From a virus, in the IMG/VR virus record IMGVR_UViG_3300006332_000028, positions 1 to 24,817 of that record: a stretch of 24,817 nucleotides of DNA. One strand, written 5' to 3'. Shown piece after piece: positions 9,685 to 23,032 of the stretch (position 1 is the stretch's first letter; every line of letters begins with the position of its first letter). Position numbers and translations under genes: made by a program. The notes beneath the pieces were generated by a model. It did no database searches and was not told where the DNA came from. It saw only the letters and a list, made by a program, of their open reading frames with translations.

Positions 9685-11031
9685 ATGGCAAATGGATTAA
9701 ATAATAACCAAGATTTGTTAAGATCCTTAGATGATCTACAAAGAACTTTTGGTGCTCCAATACCAGAAGTTGATTTTATACAACCCCCTGTAGAAGCTGC
9801 ACCTGTTAATCAAAATCAAAATATTTTGATGCAAGGTTTAGAAGCATTAGCAGGAGGAGCAGGAGGGGTTTTAGGTAATCTTGGAAGAATTACAGGTGTT
9901 CTGCCTACTAGAGGGCAACAACAAAGAGAGCAACAACGACAAAATATTGATGCTTTCATTGCTCAAGAATTAACACCTGATCAACAAATTATTTTTAATG
10001 CTTTATCACCAGAAATGCAACAACAATATGTAACTACTAAGCTTACTGGTGCACCACAAGAGAATTTGGGTACTCAAAATGCAATGTTTGAAAAATGGAA
10101 AGATATGCCAGAAGGCGAACTTAAGGATCTGTATGGATCATTACTTTTTGGAGGATCTGGAGACACAGCAACTATAAAGAATTGGAAGTTTCTTAGTGAG
10201 CTAGATAGCGAAGAAGAAAGAGAAAGATTTTTAGCACTTGAAAATTTAAGTCCACAAGTTGCATATGATATAGCAAAATCAAAAACAGAAGGTGCACAAG
10301 GATTAACCCGTGGCGTTGGTCCTCTTACACCAGGGCAAGAAAAAATAGATACAACCTTTGGCGCTGGCGCACAACAAATGCAGCAGGATTTGTTGTTAAA
10401 TATGTCTAATCTAAGTTTATTAACTAATGCTGTAGATGAGCTAGAAAATGCAGAAAAAAATAATATGAATTTTTCAGGTATAGATGTTGGAATTGTAGGT
10501 CAAACTGGATTCCTACCTATATTAAATCCAGCAGCAGTAGATATGCAAGAAAGAATAGCAGGTTTTGTTTATCAAAGTTTAAAAGCTACTTTAGGAGCGC
10601 AGTTTACAGAAGGCGAAAGCAAAGCTTATGTAAGTGTTACATTTAATCCGTTTTTAGATGAAAAGGTAAATGCTCGTAGATTAAAAAGAGCGATTGATTT
10701 ACAAAAAGGTTATGCAAGAGATTCACAACAGAAATTAGACTACTTTGCTCAGAATCAAACTTTAAGAGGTTATCAAGGTACAGAAATAACAAAAGAAAGT
10801 GTTTTTGATGATCTTAATAACAAAGTTATTGGTGATTTTATTAATAGTGATTATCAAGGTTTATCAGGAGATCAACTGAATAAAGCAAGAGCATACGATT
10901 ACGGCAACACATTAATTGACTTAACGAAAGAAGAGTTGAGAGAAAAATTTGGCAATACTGAAACAACAGACTGGCAAAAAGATGTTATAGCAGAGTATAT
11001 ACAAAACAACTTAGAAAAATTTAGCAATTAA
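9685..11031 (+). CDS. Internal virion (ejection) protein
   Basis: A 448-aa protein preceded by GAGGAG 8-10 bases before its ATG. The N-terminal 130 residues are Gln/Pro-rich with a Gly-rich stretch (ALAGGAGGVLGNLGRITGVL) that could interact with a membrane. The rest is mostly helical. A recognisable block, YQSLKATLGAQFTEGESKAY followed by NPFLDEKVNARRLKRAI, occurs in many phage internal or injected proteins. The C-terminus is charged and helical. It lies between two other putative ejection proteins, with 10 bases to the next. No lytic transglycosylase motif (ES...GxxQ) is seen, so wall digestion is not its job. The role as an ejectosome part is inferred from family resemblance and position. 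Confidence 0.65.
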   Translation: MANGLNNNQDLLRSLDDLQRTFGAPIPEVDFIQPPVEAAPVNQNQNILMQGLEALAGGAGGVLGNLGRITGVLPTRGQQQREQQRQNIDAFIAQELTPDQQIIFNALSPEMQQQYVTTKLTGAPQENLGTQNAMFEKWKDMPEGELKDLYGSLLFGGSGDTATIKNWKFLSELDSEEERERFLALENLSPQVAYDIAKSKTEGAQGLTRGVGPLTPGQEKIDTTFGAGAQQMQQDLLLNMSNLSLLTNAVDELENAEKNNMNFSGIDVGIVGQTGFLPILNPAAVDMQERIAGFVYQSLKATLGAQFTEGESKAYVSVTFNPFLDEKVNARRLKRAIDLQKGYARDSQQKLDYFAQNQTLRGYQGTEITKESVFDDLNNKVIGDFINSDYQGLSGDQLNKARAYDYGNTLIDLTKEELREKFGNTETTDWQKDVIAEYIQNNLEKFSN

Positions 11032-12974: not shown

Positions 12975-13289
12975 ATGGTAAATAAGATTTCAGAAGCCAG
13001 TGAGATTCAGATACCTTTAAAGAATCTAATAGGTATTGTTCTAGTAGCTGTAGTAGGTACTACAAGCTACTTTAGTATTTTAGAACGAATTAATAATCTG
13101 GAAAACGAAATCACCAATATCTCGGTGACTGTTTTGGGTAATGAAACCTGGATTGATGAGTGGGAGACGAGTGGGATACTTCCTCTTGATCGTATACAAA
13201 ATATGCAGATAGCCTTATTAGAAGAACAAATGAAAGGCCATGAAGAACTAATAGATAAAGTCTTACCTAGAGGCGTACCGAATCAATAA
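12975..13289 (+). CDS. Membrane-anchored coiled-coil protein
   Basis: A 104-aa protein. Residues 1-17 are cytoplasmic-like, a hydrophobic span follows (LIGIVLVAVVGTTSYFSI, about residues 18-36), and then a coiled coil (ERINNLENEITNISVTVLG) and a second helical part after a Trp-rich turn (TWIDEWETSGILPL). The last helix carries MQIALLEEQMKGHEELID. This layout would place the coiled coil in the periplasm. It could be an i-spanin-like or superinfection-related protein, but there is no lipoprotein partner nearby and it is far from the lysozyme. There is no obvious ribosome site. It is the last gene before the attachment region. Confidence 0.6.
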   Translation: MVNKISEASEIQIPLKNLIGIVLVAVVGTTSYFSILERINNLENEITNISVTVLGNETWIDEWETSGILPLDRIQNMQIALLEEQMKGHEELIDKVLPRGVPNQ

Positions 13290-13496: not shown

Positions 13497-13541
13497 CTCA
13501 TAACCCGAAGGTCGATGGTTCAAATCCATCCCCCGCTACCA
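13497..13541 (+). other. attP core: 3' half of a tRNA-fMet gene
   Basis: The 45 bases read as the 3' half of initiator tRNA: anticodon loop CTCATAA, 3' anticodon stem CCCGA, variable region AGGTC, T-stem GATGG, T-loop TTCAAAT, T-stem CCATC, acceptor CCCCGCT, A and CCA. They match the E. coli tRNA-fMet pattern closely over the anticodon and variable part. The 5' half of the tRNA and the 5' side of the anticodon stem are absent, so this is not a tRNA gene. Integration would restore the host gene. The crossover is probably in or near the anticodon loop. Confidence 0.82.
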
Positions 13542-16401: not shown

Positions 16402-16893
16402 TTAGTCGTCATCATGTAAAAAAGATGGAACATCACCACTGGCTGTTTCTTTCTCTATTGCTTCATCCAATGTTTCTTTTTTAGGTGGTAAGAACAACTG
16501 AACATCGTTTGTAGGTGGTCTTGATTGATAAGCAGCTTTTGTCTTAACTTTAACCTTGCCCATTTTTCCAACCAGTTTACTTAACAGCTCTTCAGATATT
16601 TCTTCTCCTACTGGTACTGCTTCTTGAAAACAGACGAATGCTCTCGATAATTTTCCGAGAGCAATATCATCTTGTTCTCCGTTACGAAAAATAGATAGCC
16701 AGGATGTGATATCAGCATTTTGTTCTGGTTCTTTTAGTGCTAATAGAATAGTGGTTCCAGTTTCCTTACTAATTATCTTAGTTCTCTCAACTATTACTTT
16801 ATAAGTGCCAGGTTTAAGTATCTTAGGTGGTGGAAACTCCCCAGGATTAAGCTCTATTTCTCGTTCAGGTACAGGTATAAATTTAGGCAACAT
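16402..16893 (-). CDS. Single-strand DNA-binding protein, DUF669-like
   Basis: A 163-aa protein with an N-terminal beta-barrel-like region (LKPGTYKVIVERTKIISKET, then LLALKEP, ITSWLSIFR) and a Pro-rich linker. It ends in an acidic tip (PSFLHDDD), the usual feature by which SSB proteins bind partners. DUF669 proteins commonly sit next to Sak4-like ATPases in phages, as here, and are believed to coat ssDNA. AAGGAG lies 7 bases before the start. It overlaps the ATPase gene by 11 bases and is followed after 3 bases by the nuclease gene. The family call rests on pattern and context. Confidence 0.7.
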   Translation of the reverse strand: MLPKFIPVPEREIELNPGEFPPPKILKPGTYKVIVERTKIISKETGTTILLALKEPEQNADITSWLSIFRNGEQDDIALGKLSRAFVCFQEAVPVGEEISEELLSKLVGKMGKVKVKTKAAYQSRPPTNDVQLFLPPKKETLDEAIEKETASGDVPSFLHDDD

Positions 16894-17671
16894 GTTTTTT
16901 CTCCTTTTTGACTACTTTTGATTGTGAATAAGCTTTTTTAAATGCGTTATAACTAAGTGGAATCTGATGACGATTGTTCTCATCGGTCAATGGTCGTCTC
17001 GATTTAGCTTCGAAACTCGTTGAACCGCTGGTGTGTAATATTCGACTATCGCTTCCTACTGCGATAGTCTTTTTATTAAACCCCTCTCCCCTTTGAATGG
17101 TCCTTGTATCGAAATTTGCAAATAGCAAAAAGTCACTCCACTCTTTGACTAGACTTGATGCCTTTTGATGTAGCTTTAACGAAATGAAAGAGTAGGGTTC
17201 TAACATAGGATCATTTTTTGTGGTGTTTTGTGTATGACAGATCAAGCAGATCATCATGTTATTCTTTTCTACCAATTGATCTAACAGCCCTAAGAATTTT
17301 CTTAACTCACTAAGGCTATGGCTATAGCCTTTGCCAAAGGGAATATCAGAAATATCCTCTACTGGTTCTCTTTTGTTGAATTGCTGTACGATTGATTTAT
17401 GAATTAATGCTTCGAGGAAATCAAGACTATCAATGACTAAAGTTTTAAATTTATCTTCTTTTTTATCTAGCAACTCATGAATAACATCTAAAACTTCACT
17501 ATAATTAAATAAATTCTGAACACGATTAACATCCAAATGGTTTGTACCTTTCTCTAAATCTAAAAATAAAGGCTTTGGCATTTGGCTTGCAAAGGTACTC
17601 TTGCCAACCCCGTTCGTTCCTGAAAGAACGATGCGGGGTGGCTTCTCTTGTAATCCTTTAGTTACTTTCAT
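16883..17671 (-). CDS. Sak4-like RecA-fold recombination ATPase (AAA_24)
   Basis: A 262-aa ATPase with Walker A GTNGVGKST (residues 18-26), a Walker B-like strand TLVIDSLDF (Asp80) and a sensor-type ICLICHTQ with His145. The size, the immediate N-terminal P-loop and the C-terminal strand-rich end match phage AAA_24 / Sak4 single-strand annealing ATPases, which act with an SSB. AGGAG precedes the ATG by 6 bases. The gene overlaps both neighbours (14 bases with the upstream small ORF, 11 with the SSB-like gene). It probably supports recombination-dependent replication or repair of phage DNA. The distinction between annealing and recombinase activity cannot be made from the sequence. Confidence 0.82.
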   Translation of the reverse strand: MKVTKGLQEKPPRIVLSGTNGVGKSTFASQMPKPLFLDLEKGTNHLDVNRVQNLFNYSEVLDVIHELLDKKEDKFKTLVIDSLDFLEALIHKSIVQQFNKREPVEDISDIPFGKGYSHSLSELRKFLGLLDQLVEKNNMMICLICHTQNTTKNDPMLEPYSFISLKLHQKASSLVKEWSDFLLFANFDTRTIQRGEGFNKKTIAVGSDSRILHTSGSTSFEAKSRRPLTDENNRHQIPLSYNAFKKAYSQSKVVKKEKKHVA

Positions 17672-17858
17672 TTTCTTCTCCTATGATTAATATTGATGCT
17701 TCTAAATCTAAATAAAGATCCCTATGTTCATATTTATAGGTCAATAATTTTCGAGGAGATTTTAAAACCCACTTTTTTTCAAAAGGGAAGGCTTGAGGAC
17801 CAATAACATTAATTTGCTGTTTAGCTAACCTGCTTATTGCTTCTTGATAATCACTCAT
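17658..17858 (-). CDS. Small protein, first gene of the leftward operon
   Basis: A 66-aa protein starting with a helix (SDYQEAISRLAKQQINVIG) and continuing with basic and aromatic residues (PFEKKWVLKSPRKLLTYKYE), then an acidic end (IIGEENESN). No family is recognised. Its ATG sits two bases after a T8 run that ends a terminator-shaped hairpin, and there is no free Shine-Dalgarno sequence; only the GGGG inside the hairpin could serve. The gene overlaps the ATPase gene by 14 bases. It may have a regulatory or leader-type function for the recombination operon, but that is a guess from its place. Confidence 0.55.
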   Translation of the reverse strand: MSDYQEAISRLAKQQINVIGPQAFPFEKKWVLKSPRKLLTYKYEHRDLYLDLEASILIIGEENESN

Positions 17859-17859
17859 T

Positions 17860-17894
17860 AAAAAAAACCCCGAATTAATGACTTAATTCGAGGT
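17860..17894 (-). terminator. Strong intrinsic terminator / attenuator against a start codon
   Basis: On the - strand, ACCTCGAATTAA and TTAATTCGGGGT pair as a 12-bp stem (one G-U pair) around GTCA, followed by eight T. The G-U pair becomes a C-A mismatch in the + direction and there is no T-run there, so the terminator works leftward. It would end the repressor transcript. The next ATG follows the T-run by only one base, so the same structure lies in the leader of the recombination operon. Confidence 0.85.
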
Positions 17895-17900
17895 TATTAA

Positions 17901-17906
17901 ATTATA
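17901..17906 (-). promoter_or_regulatory. Candidate -10 of the leftward early promoter
   Basis: The - strand has GATAATATAAT, with TATAAT at 17906-17901. A perfect TTGACA at 17919-17914 is too close (7 bases) to pair with it; with a 17-base spacer TTGACA would need a -10 at TAACCT. If the TATAAT is used, transcription would start at about 17894, the first base of the terminator stem. Near-direct repeats ACTTGTC and ACTTGAC upstream (17913-17934) could be an operator. Confidence 0.35.
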
Positions 17907-17963
17907 TTATCTATGTCAAGTAAAAGTAGACAAGTATTTTAAAACATTACGATAGGCTATAAT

Positions 17964-19280
17964 TTAAAAGGAATTATTATTAGATTTCCTTAACTTTAAT
18001 AAAAAATCTACGACATTGTTTTCCTCTTTTGCTATTTTTTGGTCTATTCCTTTTCTTACTAAATAGCTATGTAGCCCATTTTTATTGGCTGGATTGGAAA
18101 TACTGGTCATTAGAGCAATTAAGTCAGTCGTCTTTTTGTAAGGCACTATAGCAGAACCTATCATTTCCCTATAAAGATTGATCTTTTCTTGAATCGTTTT
18201 ATCTGTTGAGCTAATAAAATCTAAATATTCTTTAATATTCATTTTGTCTGACCAATGATATTGCATTATGCTGTTTTTTGGCTGAATCAAATCTAAGAAA
18301 TTCCATTGGCTACGCATATAAGAAATATAATCATTCTGTAGAGTTTCTAAGTGATTGCCTATAAATGATAAATGTATATCGCGACCATATTTTATAATGT
18401 TTATGATACCTAGCCGATCTCTAATACCAATCTTTGTGTTGACATAAGGAAAAGTATAAAATCCTCGACTGTAATCAATTATTTCAGCCCTAACATCATT
18501 ATTCATTGCAGCATGAAATTTATCCTCTTCAGTATAATCTTTGAAGATATTTGAGAAAGCATCAGAATAATATATTCGTCTTTGTAATTCTTCATTACCC
18601 TGATTAATAATATAGTTTGGAGTAGATATGTTATCTATTAAATTTCTGTATTGCTTTGTTAAAAACTTATGTACTGAGTTTGGAGCAACACTGGTTTTTT
18701 TAAATTGACCATCAATGGCGTTAAACACTGACAGTTGATAACAGTCATGTTCATGCAGTTTTGCTTTTAATTTAGATGTTAACTGACTAGATTTAAGTGC
18801 TGTAAAGTGGAAGTTACAATTTGCCGTTACTAGATCAAAAAAACAACCTTCTTTTTTTGCAAATTCTTTAGCATATTGGGTTAAATAATTAGGTATTTTT
18901 GTAATACTTTGGATCTCTTTATATTTATAAAAGTAAAATACATCATTTAAAGTTATAAAGAAGAAGTCGCCACATAAGTGTTGGACTTGGCTCCCAATAC
19001 CCTTTTCAGTATAATTTTGGTGTATGATCTTCCTTCGTTCAGAACAATAGAGAGTGTCTATTTCGGATTCATACCTTGTTGGATTGTGCATGTAATTTCT
19101 TTGTAAATATTTTTTTGTTTCTGGACAAACATAAAATGATAAATTACAGAGCTTTTGAATAGTTTTTTCTTTAGGAACTAAATAATCTGGCTTAATGCCT
19201 TTTTCATTGGATATTAAAAAATCATTGATGCTATTGCTTATAAAATCCTGTAGATCTTTACCCTGATGTCTTAGATTCAT
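17964..19280 (-). CDS. Unrecognised 438-aa protein co-directional with the repressor (lysogenic cargo candidate)
   Basis: I do not recognise this protein. It is 438 aa, rich in Asn, Ile, Lys, Tyr and Phe, with no obvious membrane span, signal peptide, P-loop or nuclease motif. All seven Cys (45, 52, 79, 103, 146, 155, 180) lie in the first 180 residues, together with several His, so a metal- or disulphide-containing N-terminal part is possible. The last ~250 residues have none and look mostly helical. The start has AGGAGC 6 bases upstream and lies 25 bases after the repressor stop, on the same strand, and a terminator follows. That makes it likely to be expressed from the repressor promoter in a lysogen, as exclusion or defence genes often are. 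Its function is not shown by sequence. Confidence 0.75.
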   Translation of the reverse strand: MNLRHQGKDLQDFISNSINDFLISNEKGIKPDYLVPKEKTIQKLCNLSFYVCPETKKYLQRNYMHNPTRYESEIDTLYCSERRKIIHQNYTEKGIGSQVQHLCGDFFFITLNDVFYFYKYKEIQSITKIPNYLTQYAKEFAKKEGCFFDLVTANCNFHFTALKSSQLTSKLKAKLHEHDCYQLSVFNAIDGQFKKTSVAPNSVHKFLTKQYRNLIDNISTPNYIINQGNEELQRRIYYSDAFSNIFKDYTEEDKFHAAMNNDVRAEIIDYSRGFYTFPYVNTKIGIRDRLGIINIIKYGRDIHLSFIGNHLETLQNDYISYMRSQWNFLDLIQPKNSIMQYHWSDKMNIKEYLDFISSTDKTIQEKINLYREMIGSAIVPYKKTTDLIALMTSISNPANKNGLHSYLVRKGIDQKIAKEENNVVDFLLKLRKSNNNSF

Positions 19281-19305: not shown

Positions 19306-19746
19306 TTATTTATTTTTTCTTTTTGGCTTACTACCCTCAACATGGCTGTCAATCAGATTAGCTATACTCTCTTTTATAGAGGGATCTAGCATTTTTAACT
19401 TATTGGCAATCAAGAACTCCTCGCTCTCAGGTTCGGGCAAGAAATCGCGGCCTGTCAATAGCCAGACAGGATCAGCTTCATAAAATGAAGCGATATGCCT
19501 TATCAATGAAAGGCGAGGTAATTGCTCGCCACTCTCCCAGGCAGCTACAGTGCTATGAGAAATTTCAGTCTTAAAGCTATCGACTTCTTTAGCTTTAGCC
19601 AGTCTTTTTTGCTCTTTCTGTAAATGCTCAGTCAGCATAGCAGCTAAGTCACGAACACTTGGGCCTTTAGCAGATTTCCCATCTTTTTCGTACTCTAAAT
19701 TCTGACGCATCAGTTTAAGCCGTTGTGAGATTTTATCTCTAGTCAT
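19306..19746 (-). CDS. CI-like XRE-family repressor
   Basis: A 146-aa protein with an XRE-type helix-turn-helix: a first helix (ISQRLKLMRQNLEYEK), VRDLAAMLTEHLQ as the second, and the recognition helix in ISHSTVAAWESGEQLPRLS (about 62-80), then LIRHIASFYEADPVWLLTG, the usual closing helix. About 25 charged residues (QKEQKRLAKAKEVDSF) are inserted inside the helix-turn-helix unit. The C-terminal part is short, helical and basic; there is no LexA/CI-type autoprotease domain, so induction by RecA-driven cleavage is not expected. AGGGG lies 10 bases before the ATG. It faces the Cro-like gene across a 205-base control region and probably keeps lysogeny. Confidence 0.82.
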   Translation of the reverse strand: MTRDKISQRLKLMRQNLEYEKDGKSAKGPSVRDLAAMLTEHLQKEQKRLAKAKEVDSFKTEISHSTVAAWESGEQLPRLSLIRHIASFYEADPVWLLTGRDFLPEPESEEFLIANKLKMLDPSIKESIANLIDSHVEGSKPKRKNK

Positions 19747-19782
19747 AATATATAACCCCTATATTAATTGTATTTTATTCCA

Positions 19783-19800
19783 GTTACTCCTGTTACTCCT
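19783..19800. repeat. Tandem 9-bp repeat upstream of the repressor
   Basis: GTTACTCCT occurs twice head to tail, about 37 bases upstream of the repressor start. On the repressor strand it reads AGGAGTAAC twice. It could be an operator or part of the repressor leader; there is no ATG at a useful distance to make it a ribosome site. Confidence 0.45.
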
Positions 19801-19804
19801 GAAA

Positions 19805-19922
19805 ACAATACTAATTTAAATAAACCATGTCAACTATTAGTTTACAAAATAACTTTTACAATACATTTGCAATTTGATCTAGGTTTCGATACCTTTAAGG
19901 TTATTGTAAGGTTAAACAATAC
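19805..19922. promoter_or_regulatory. Candidate operator set: three ACAATAC copies in the divergent region
   Basis: ACAATAC occurs at 19805-19811, 19858-19864 and 19916-19922, with A or T on both sides. An inverted TATTGT at 19902-19907 faces the third copy across 8 bases, giving a palindrome TATTGT-N8-ACAATA. Three same-direction copies in the 205 bases between repressor and Cro are plausible binding sites for one or both of these proteins. Confidence 0.45.
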
Positions 19923-19932
19923 AAAGTATAGG
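19904..19932 (+). promoter_or_regulatory. Candidate rightward early promoter (PR-like)
   Basis: TTGTAA (19904-19909) and TATAGG (19927-19932) are separated by 17 bases; each matches its consensus at 4 of 6 positions. The third ACAATAC lies inside the spacer, so a protein bound there would block the promoter. The Cro-like start codon is 20 bases downstream with AGGAG in front of it. Confidence 0.45.
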
Positions 19933-19951
19933 AAAGCTAATAGGAGCAACA

Positions 19952-20137
19952 ATGACACCTGAACATATCTGGAAAGAAATTAAAGTTTCAAGCCTAGCGA
20001 AACAGATTGGCATTAGTAGAAAGAGCATTTATGCCTGGAAGGAAAGGAAGAAGATTCCCGCAGAAAGAGTGTTAGAGGTAGTTAAACACTACCCAAATCT
20101 TAAAAAATCTGATTTGCGACCTGATTTATGGGATTAA
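19952..20137 (+). CDS. Cro-like small helix-turn-helix protein
   Basis: A 61-aa protein with one helix-turn-helix (SSLAKQIGISRKSIYAWKER, about residues 13-32) and the ending VLEVVKHYPNLKKSDLRPDL. This ending (a helix, then K..LRPD.W) is typical of Cro-like or YdaS-type phage regulators. TAGGAGC precedes the ATG at good spacing. It is the first gene of the rightward early operon, facing the repressor, and overlaps the primase gene by 10 bases. It probably represses the repressor promoter and helps choose lytic growth. Confidence 0.78.
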   Translation: MTPEHIWKEIKVSSLAKQIGISRKSIYAWKERKKIPAERVLEVVKHYPNLKKSDLRPDLWD

Positions 20138-21894
20138 AAATATTAAGCAATCCTGTTAATAAGCAGGAGATTCTAGAATCTTTACTAGAATTGTCAACGG
20201 AACACGATATCCATTTAATACCATGTGGTGCTAACAAAAGACCATTAGTTTCTTGGAAAAAGTATATTGATCGAAAACCAGACTCTAAAATTATTCACAA
20301 TTGGTTCATACAGTACCCAAATGCTTATTGGGGTGCTTTAACAGGCAAGAATTTTGGAGTAATTGACTTAGACACTTATAAAAACGATCAGCTTGAGATA
20401 TGGGCAGAAGAACATCTTCCTTTTACCCCATTACGAGTCAAAACTCGTAATGGAGGCTGTCACCTTTATTATCAGTTTCAGAATTTAGATGTCTCGGTTA
20501 AGGCATCTACAAAAGGGTTAGATATTAGAAATAAAAATGGTTTTGTGATCATTGTAGGGGAGGGCTATCAGTTTCAATGGCTCGATAATAAAAGTTTTCA
20601 TTTGTTTAGTGATTTACCAAGTCTTTCACATAAACACCTTAGTTTAATTGAAAAACAGTTTTATAACGGCCAGGATAAAACAGAAAACAATGTCATATCA
20701 ATGCCAGTCAATGAGAGTTGGCATACCCATGTGTTAAAGACGATTGCTAGGTGGGTAGCAGAAGGGCGTACTGATAATCAGATATTAAAAGATTGTACGA
20801 TATTCACACAAACTGGCTACTCGCATCAACAAACGATAGAAGAAGTCAGAAAAATGATTGCTGGAGCCAGGGAGAAAGATTTTGGTAGTTCTGAAGATGA
20901 AGAACCCATCAAAGCTTTGACCATTGCAAATGCTTTTAAGATGGAACAAGAAAAACCAACTGAGTTTATTGGTGAGGGCTTTATTGCTGCTGGGTTTCGT
21001 TTATTTGTGATTGGCCCTCCTAAAGTGGGCAAATCACAATTTATTTTAGAGGCTCTAACATCTTGTGCTTATGGTGGTAAGTGGCTCGATATGCAATGGG
21101 ATAGACCTCATAAAGTGCTTTGGTTACAAGCAGAAATACGAGGCTCTTATGTTGGTACAAGACTTAAACCTATGTACGATAATTTAGAAGAAGAAAAACA
21201 ACAACTATTAGACAACAACTTCTTTTGGACAGATAGAGGCGATATTGATTTAAACAATTTTAATATTAAAAGGCTTAAAAGATTATTACAAAAGATTAAA
21301 CCTAGTCTAGTCGCAATTGATCCTTTTGCTAATTATTTTGATGGAGACTCAGAAAGCGATAATAGCCAAGTTACTAAATTTTTTAAAAAACTTAATAACC
21401 TTTTCTCTTATAAGGAATTAGGCTTTGTACCTCCAGCCCTTGTGCTAGTACACCACACAAGGAAGCTTGGAGCTTCAAGTGCCGATTTTGAAGCAATTAG
21501 AGGCGCTTCTGCATTCCAGGGTTGGTATGATTCTGGCTTGCTAATGATAGATGAAGAAGATCATGTAAGGGTTAAATTCCAATTAAGGAATGGGGCTTGG
21601 CCTAACGATAAGCTCATAAAGTTAGATCCTAATAGCATGCAATTTGTACCTTACGATCAAAATTACCAAGTAGTGAATGAAGTAATCAAAGAATTAGCTT
21701 TTTTAAATTCAACAATAGGAATCTTCGATTTAAATAATTTGATTGTTCAGCATGGAGAAAATATAAATGCTGATTCATGCAAAGAAATAAGACACCAAAT
21801 TTTGGCTCATCCACATATAGAAAAAATAGGCGATAGACGATCAACGAAATTGAAAATAAAACCTAAATTTAAAAAGAGATGGGAGGATAGATAG
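20128..21894 (+). CDS. Bifunctional primase-polymerase / RepA-type helicase fusion
   Basis: A 588-aa replication protein. Residues about 20-160 are a prim-pol (archaeo-eukaryotic primase) domain, with the metal-binding DLD at 80-82 (FGVIDLDTYK), GGCHLYY with His112, and GLDIRNKNGFVIIVG (130-144). Residues 280-490 are a RecA-fold ATPase of the AAA_25/RepA type, with Walker A GPPKVGKS (296-303), Walker B LVAIDPF (Asp398) and LVHHTRK (His442-443). The last ~80 residues look like a small winged-helix domain. It probably primes and unwinds DNA at the phage origin, relying on the host polymerase, since no DNA polymerase is in the window. Its start lies inside the end of the Cro-like gene. No ribosome site is seen, so translation is probably coupled. 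Confidence 0.88.
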   Translation: MGLKILSNPVNKQEILESLLELSTEHDIHLIPCGANKRPLVSWKKYIDRKPDSKIIHNWFIQYPNAYWGALTGKNFGVIDLDTYKNDQLEIWAEEHLPFTPLRVKTRNGGCHLYYQFQNLDVSVKASTKGLDIRNKNGFVIIVGEGYQFQWLDNKSFHLFSDLPSLSHKHLSLIEKQFYNGQDKTENNVISMPVNESWHTHVLKTIARWVAEGRTDNQILKDCTIFTQTGYSHQQTIEEVRKMIAGAREKDFGSSEDEEPIKALTIANAFKMEQEKPTEFIGEGFIAAGFRLFVIGPPKVGKSQFILEALTSCAYGGKWLDMQWDRPHKVLWLQAEIRGSYVGTRLKPMYDNLEEEKQQLLDNNFFWTDRGDIDLNNFNIKRLKRLLQKIKPSLVAIDPFANYFDGDSESDNSQVTKFFKKLNNLFSYKELGFVPPALVLVHHTRKLGASSADFEAIRGASAFQGWYDSGLLMIDEEDHVRVKFQLRNGAWPNDKLIKLDPNSMQFVPYDQNYQVVNEVIKELAFLNSTIGIFDLNNLIVQHGENINADSCKEIRHQILAHPHIEKIGDRRSTKLKIKPKFKKRWEDR

Positions 21895-22000: not shown

Positions 22001-22429
22001 ATGTCTAGAAAATCATTACAAAAAGGTAAGAGGGCTGAACTAGAGGCTATCTCGTTATTAGAAAAATATTACCCTGAAAAGTTAAATCGTAATTTATTGC
22101 AAACCAGAGATTCTGGAGCAGATATTATAATAAAATCCGCAAGACTTTCAGTTGAAGTTAAGCGTTATAAATTAGGAAATTTGTACTCTTTTCGTTCCGA
22201 GTGGTGGACACAAGCTGTAAAGGCAGTTGAGGGAACGGAACTCATTCCACTTCTATTATATCGTTTCGATAGATCAGACTGGTTTTGTGTATTGCCTTTA
22301 GATGTATTCCTACAAAAACCGATCAAAGATTTCAATCTGCAATCATTAGGAGTCTTAACTGCTAATGAACTATTTGAACAACACTTTAAAACATTGTCGT
22401 TTTATAAAGATGGGAGCTTCGATTGGTAG
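22001..22429 (+). CDS. Holliday-junction-resolvase-like PD-(D/E)XK nuclease
   Basis: A 142-aa protein with the order expected of Hjc-type resolvases: KGKRAELEA with Glu13, then RDSGADIII with Asp41, and VEVKRYK with Glu52 and Lys54. The block EWWTQAVKAVEGTELIPLLL follows, then LYRFDRSDWFCVLPLDVF. Such small nucleases cut branched DNA before packaging, and phages often place them near replication genes, as here. It could also be a more general VRR/RecB-type nuclease. The start follows about 100 bases of structured non-coding DNA; no ribosome site is obvious. It ends 7 bases into the next gene. Confidence 0.72.
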   Translation: MSRKSLQKGKRAELEAISLLEKYYPEKLNRNLLQTRDSGADIIIKSARLSVEVKRYKLGNLYSFRSEWWTQAVKAVEGTELIPLLLYRFDRSDWFCVLPLDVFLQKPIKDFNLQSLGVLTANELFEQHFKTLSFYKDGSFDW

Positions 22430-22809
22430 ACATAACCTCTCCTGAGAAATACTTAAAGAAAAAATATAAGTCGTTATATCAAGCAAGGGCGAAGCAGGGG
22501 ATTGACTGGTCGATTAAGCCTCAGGATTTAATTGATATGTGGTATGAACAGAAAGGAATATGTTCAGTTACAGGCTTACATATGCAACACCAAACTTTTC
22601 AAGCTAAAAGAGATACAACAAAAGGTAAACCAGGTAAAAAAAATCTGTTCAATGTCTCTGTTGATAGGATAGATAACACTGTTGGTTATCATAAATATAA
22701 TCTAAGACTTGTTTGTTTCGGAGTCAATAAGCTTAAATCTGGCTTGACAGAAGCTGATTTCGTCTGGTGGATCAGAACAATTAACAAAGGATTAAAAGAT
22801 GAAGGATAA
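22423..22809 (+). CDS. HNH-type endonuclease-like protein (TTG start)
   Basis: A 128-aa protein starting at TTG, with GGGAG 6 bases upstream and no ATG in the first 37 codons. The HNH signs are ICSVTG (Cys47, Thr50, Gly51), SVDRIDN (Asp81-Arg82-Ile83-Asp84), GYHKYNLRLVC (Asn93, Cys98) and VNKLKSGL (Asn102). This pattern is that of small phage HNH proteins with a helper Cys pair. In many phages such a protein sits close to the terminase and takes part in packaging, and here the small terminase is about 0.8 kb downstream. A homing nuclease is the alternative, but its tight overlaps with both neighbours (7 and 11 bases) argue for a resident gene. Confidence 0.72.
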   Translation: MVDITSPEKYLKKKYKSLYQARAKQGIDWSIKPQDLIDMWYEQKGICSVTGLHMQHQTFQAKRDTTKGKPGKKNLFNVSVDRIDNTVGYHKYNLRLVCFGVNKLKSGLTEADFVWWIRTINKGLKDEG

Positions 22810-23032
22810 AGTATATAAACCACAACACTATCAAGGAAAAGGGGTCGAGTGTATAGACGCGATTAAAAGCGCTCTTAAATCAACACCACATGGCTTTGAG
22901 AGCTATTGCCGAGGAAATGTCATGAAATATATTTTTCGGTATAGGCAGAAGAATGGCGAAGAAGATTTACTAAAGGCACGAGTATATTTAGATTGGCTGA
23001 TTATAGAGGTAAGCGAACAAAATGGAGAATGA
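22799..23032 (+). CDS. DUF3310 family protein
   Basis: A 77-aa protein with PQHYQGKGVECIDAIKSAL, then GFESYCRGNVMKYIFRYRQK and GEEDLLKARVYLDWLI. These match the DUF3310 pattern (P.HY...G.E.ID.I....G....F..GN..KYI.R...K.G..DL.KA..YL..LI) over the full length. The family is common in phage early regions, and its biochemical role is not settled; nucleotide metabolism or regulation has been suggested. It starts inside the end of the HNH gene and overlaps the next small gene by 11 bases. Confidence 0.85.
   Translation: MKDKVYKPQHYQGKGVECIDAIKSALKSTPHGFESYCRGNVMKYIFRYRQKNGEEDLLKARVYLDWLIIEVSEQNGE

Follow-up and report, generated by a model that had tools for sequence, protein, structure and literature searches.

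A conserved protein of an unrecognised family in the putative immunity cassette of a temperate phage: a candidate exclusion or switch factor

A temperate phage known from metagenomes only encodes, directly behind its repressor, a 438-aa protein that matches no recognised family. What is new here is a comparative result, namely that the gene for this protein is part of an exchangeable immunity cassette, replaced together with the repressor and cro genes while both flanks of the genome stay nearly the same.

The window, that is the whole stretch of DNA that was analysed, spans 24,817 bases and comes from a virus record assembled from metagenomic data (IMGVR_UViG_3300006332_000028). Its left part carries the virion genes and then the integrase. 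A leftward recombination operon contains, in this order, a Cas4-type exonuclease, a 163-aa ORF, a Sak4-like AAA protein (16883-17671, minus strand; PF13479, PHROG 124) and a 66-aa ORF (17658-17858, minus strand), the last being the first gene to be transcribed in that operon. Past it, still on the minus strand, lie the 438-aa gene (17964-19280) and the repressor gene. The plus strand encodes a divergent YdaS-type Cro, a Prim-Pol/RepA-like replication protein (20128-21894; PF09250, PF13481), a RusA-like resolvase and an HNH/endonuclease VII-like protein.

The 438-aa gene and its product

The ORF runs on the minus strand from an ATG at 19280 to a stop at 17964, and its 438 codons compare with a longest stop-free run by chance of 186 codons (200 shuffles of 19.8 kb with the same base composition). 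Relatives are encoded in two IMG/VR records only. In the first, IMGVR_UViG_3300020472_000565 (L002), a 95% identical protein is encoded in the corresponding position; synonymous changes affect 18 of 250 sites and non-synonymous changes 22 of 1061, a significant synonymous excess (dN/dS 0.29, Fisher p=1.3e-4), and the single indel between the two copies keeps the frame. In the second, IMGVR_UViG_3300030095_004992 (L006), a distant homologue of 418 aa with 29% identity (BLASTP E 6e-49) occupies the same place. The ORF length, the dN/dS against L002 and the positional homologue in L006 show that the gene encodes a real protein, one of a family under purifying selection.

The absence of any known motif, noted when the sequence was first read, persisted in sensitive profile searches (Pfam, PHROGs, NCBIfam, PADLOC), which gave no credible match. 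Likewise, no credible match emerged from the PDB or from phage and plasmid sequences, and none was obtained with defence families. IMG/VR scans with the 438-aa gene and its homologue, with the primase, Sak4 and repressor, and with two conserved motifs led to no records encoding the gene beyond these two, and GTDB scans found none; both kinds of scan seed on exact conserved peptides, so that remote homologues can be missed, and records very near the window may fall outside their reach. Marginal matches to DEPTOR (DEP domain, E 0.13) and to PHROG 10566, annotated as transcriptional regulator (E 0.02-0.16) and falling in the poorly conserved C-terminal part, were judged to be due to chance. A LuxR-type autoinducer domain, considered by eye, was rejected, as the Trp and Asp-Pro residues that mark such domains are not conserved here. 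The protein is most fittingly classed as a new family that occupies a position of a known type.

By hydropathy the product is soluble: no transmembrane segment is predicted (maximum 19-residue hydropathy 0.92), and there is no lipobox. It is basic (pI 8.9, with 9.25 for the L006 homologue) and lacks a Walker A motif. The best-conserved stretches are residues 30-60, 221-240 and 261-345, the last including IGI...LG...YG...H.S and ISYMR...LD.I...NS.MQY, and conservation is poor towards the C-terminus, where part of the sequence has no counterpart in the L006 homologue. The seven cysteines do crowd towards the N-terminus, as had been pointed out earlier, all within residues 45-180, but the pattern itself is not conserved. 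A conserved Cys cluster or metal site was ruled out, since C52 alone is invariant in the distant homologue. AlphaFold yielded no usable model (pLDDT 31 with one sequence, 32 with three), presumably because homologues are few. An Rfam search of the whole window found nothing, and inside the gene no striking repeat was evident on an inspection that was not a specific search for a BstA-type aba element.

Transcriptional signals around the repressor operon

The first gene of the operon encodes a 146-aa HTH repressor-like protein (19306-19746, minus strand), recognised by weak to moderate matches to HTH_3, HTH_19, HTH_31 and PHROG transcriptional repressor profiles. Its ORF ends at 19306, 25 nt before the 438-aa gene on the same strand. 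The latter has its own ribosome site, with AGGAG upstream of the ATG (sequence before the start: TTTAGGAGCAAAGATG), and AAGGAG precedes the ATG of the L006 homologue. On the other side the gene is closed by a terminator-like hairpin (17895-17866, minus strand) of 13 pairs followed by T8, with a folding energy of -15.5 kcal/mol (z -4.8) that none of 200 shuffles equalled; L006 has the hairpin too, with a single compensatory change of a G-C to an A-T pair. The operon position, the ribosome site and the terminator had been noted in the sequence-only reading, and each of them withstood the closer analysis.

Between the repressor and the 61-aa YdaS/Cro-type regulator (19952-20137, plus strand; PF15943 above cut-off) lies the divergent control region (19747-19951). 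A pattern scan, whose promoter matches in this region are no commoner than in shuffles, picked out TTGACA-17-TATTGT on the minus strand upstream of the repressor (19833-19805), where the TTGACA is shared by three phages in spite of the divergence of its surroundings in L006. This element is likely the repressor promoter, and the simplest reading of the signals would be a single transcript that extends from the repressor through the 438-aa gene to the predicted terminator.

In the same control region TACCTTTAAGGTTATTGTAA, upstream of Cro (19887-19905), is largely kept in L006 (TACCTTCAGGGTTATTGTAA) within diverged surroundings and is a candidate operator or promoter element. In addition, the hairpin that separates the 438-aa gene from the 66-aa ORF is overlapped by a TTGACA at matching places in the two phages (17860-17925 of the window, minus strand; 5758-5812 of L006). 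This TTGACA is followed 17 nt on by TAACCT in the window and TACCCT in L006, and the hairpin core AATTAAGTCATTAATT is identical in both. The hairpin region may be a terminator and the start region of the leftward operon at once, or an operator.

Exchange of the immunity cassette

Comparison of the same place in related phages, suggested with the first reading, gave the new result. L006 carries its diverged homologue behind its own repressor, swapped together with repressor and Cro. Specifically, the backbone genes are closely similar in the two phages (Prim-Pol 96%, Sak4 93%, exonuclease 93% and 163-aa ORF 90% aa identity), as against 64% for Cro, 38% for the repressor and 29% for the 438-aa protein, and synonymous sites in the cassette are near-saturated. 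Where Prim-Pol meets Cro (about 20130), DNA identity falls from mostly 82-100% to about 40-60%, and it rises again by the hairpin and the 66-aa ORF (about 17900). This ORF is not part of the cassette but lies close to its left end, and it shares 78% aa identity with its counterpart in L006. In other words, the segment from cro through the repressor to the 438-aa gene is homologous but deeply diverged on a shared backbone, so that the 438-aa gene belongs to an exchangeable (heteroimmunity) cassette. The three genes were swapped as a block, each version retaining a homologue of the 438-aa gene; the independent cassettes known to carry a gene of this type number two only.

The integrase is likewise exchanged (34% aa identity). 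Upstream of it, each phage has a sequence that resembles, by eye, the 3' portion of a tRNA gene, Met-like (CAT) in the window (13498-13541) and Leu-like (TAA) in L006 (about 10355-10298, minus strand), with no ARAGORN or Rfam call for either fragment. Presumably these fragments represent attP, and the two phages, with exchanged integrases and different tRNA-like fragments, would use different attachment sites. Beside the integrase, a 104-aa protein (window 12975-13289; counterpart in L006 at 10618-10932) contains a single stretch of strong hydrophobicity (maximum 19-residue hydropathy 2.17) and is possibly a second lysogeny gene or a membrane gene. Finally, the HNH protein and the next ORF, of 77 aa (window 22423-23032), are 80-94% identical to L006 in protein and only 75-85% in DNA, as compared with 95% DNA identity for Prim-Pol, which suggests another mosaic boundary.

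Possible functions of the 438-aa protein

The best explanation, which we hold tentatively and put a little short of an even chance, is that the 438-aa protein is a soluble one-protein superinfection-exclusion or abortive-infection factor made by the lysogen. The repressor's promoter would drive the gene in the lysogen, and the protein would attack an infecting phage in the cytoplasm, once the phage DNA has entered the cell. An exclusion activity is proposed from position, because the slot has positional precedents: exclusion systems made with the repressor are bstA of phage BTP1 (PMC8585504), genes 44/43 of CarolAnn (PMC6426606) and rexAB of lambda (PMC11077077), and in P. putida RexAB is found downstream of a CI-like repressor (PMC12894663).

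The closest likeness is to the Salmonella phage BTP1, where the abortive-infection gene bstA is a single gene directly behind the repressor, with its own terminator and a leftward operon beyond (PMC8585504). Order and strand, with Cro on the plus strand and repressor and bstA on the minus strand, equal those of the window phage. The likeness is one of layout: compared with a single BstA sequence, the 438-aa protein could not be related to it by sequence (hhalign probability 0.2%, BLASTP E 3.5), and BstA is a 307-aa protein with an N-terminal KilA-N-like domain that was not found here.

The orders repressor, gp44, gp43 in CarolAnn and cI, rexA, rexB in lambda place their second gene in the same slot. 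Like the RexA type (lambda RexA, CarolAnn gp44, P. putida RexApp), a group characterised in its wide sense by an RdgC-like two-domain fold, the 438-aa protein is soluble by hydropathy and encoded behind a repressor. Its length is closer to that of CarolAnn gp44 (370 aa) than to that of lambda RexA (279 aa), which binds DNA non-specifically (PMC11077077). Neither PF15969 nor the PADLOC RexA profile matched the protein or its two relatives, as against 327 and 364 bits for lambda RexA itself. Alignment by hhalign to RexA and gp44 gave no match either, with a method that also misses the relation of RexA to CarolAnn gp44, used as positive control. RexAB moreover includes a multi-pass membrane partner of the RexB type, and none follows the 438-aa gene: the next gene past the terminator is the 66-aa ORF, which is soluble (maximum 19-residue hydropathy 0.21). 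The protein differs also from membrane superinfection-exclusion proteins of the SieA, Imm and Sie2009 type in having neither their transmembrane segment nor a lipobox.

Several features would support exclusion. A conserved terminator structure separates the gene from the lytic recombination operon, and the gene is exchanged with the immunity genes when those for replication and recombination are not. A single gene with no membrane segment would suit a factor that works as BstA does, and the G+C content of 29.3% is the lowest among the listed window genes, with two small ORFs close to it. On the other side stands the lack of a match to any defence family. The sequence-only reading had called this a candidate exclusion or defence gene; the gene's operon position and its membership of the lysogeny module sustain that proposal, the defence-family searches do not, and 'candidate' is fair wording. 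In addition, it is common for the exclusion gene in the slot behind the repressor to give way to an unrelated one. Here, two repressors that differ greatly each have a homologue at their side, which would suit a partner of the repressor as well.

Such a partner, be it a sensor, a stabiliser or an anti-repressor, would set the lysis-lysogeny switch, much as ImmA does with ImmR and with a different chemistry. We rate this role as less likely than exclusion and as its strongest competitor; the observations made so far fit both. The repressor is small, at 146 aa, with HTH matches only and no peptidase or self-cleavage domain found by family profile searches. Deeply diverged as they are, the two cassettes both contain homologues of the repressor and of the 438-aa gene, and these two genes have diverged to a similar depth. 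A precedent for a repressor-partner tandem is ImmR/ImmA of ICEBs1 (PMC8960796), where a small HTH repressor lacking a cleavage domain is paired with a second protein, an arrangement matched here in position. The ImmA-type HExxH zinc-peptidase motif, however, is absent from the 438-aa protein and both relatives, as is any other peptidase motif from the protein itself, and no DNA- or ligand-binding domain is recognisable. Retention has been seen in just the two cassettes, and 438 aa would be a large size among known anti-repressors.

A lysogenic-conversion gene that alters host physiology, acting neither on phages nor on the switch, is improbable. Its place in the repressor operon would give expression in the lysogen, and accessory genes that prophages carry for a variety of roles are reported to be highly expressed in lysogens (PMC7067206). 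Nothing in profile and motif searches of the protein pointed to an enzyme, a transporter, a surface protein or secretion. Conversion genes, moreover, usually form cassettes of their own, whereas the gene considered here has a homologue that is exchanged along with the repressor. Least probable of all is an early lytic or DNA-metabolism protein lying beside the repressor by chance: replication and recombination genes do flank the cassette and have products whose pI the basic 438-aa protein resembles, but the conserved hairpin divides it from the recombination operon and strand from the replication operon, and it is exchanged with the repressor when those genes are not.

Conclusions

A wider proposal, more doubtful than the exclusion reading on its own, is that the 438-aa protein founds a new family of single-protein, repressor-linked factors for exclusion or for the switch. 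Such a protein would be folded differently from RexA and BstA, would coevolve with its repressor and would be swapped with it as a three-gene immunity cassette.

The slot behind the prophage repressor has already yielded several exclusion systems, among them rexAB, bstA and CarolAnn 43/44. In a phage group known from metagenomes only, the conserved, unrecognisable protein found there accompanies each of two highly dissimilar repressors, although the phages hardly differ elsewhere on their shared backbone. This makes it a well-defined candidate for a new protein of exclusion or of the switch. Moreover, two cassettes on one shared backbone offer a clean design for telling the dependence of the 438-aa protein on its own repressor from solo action.
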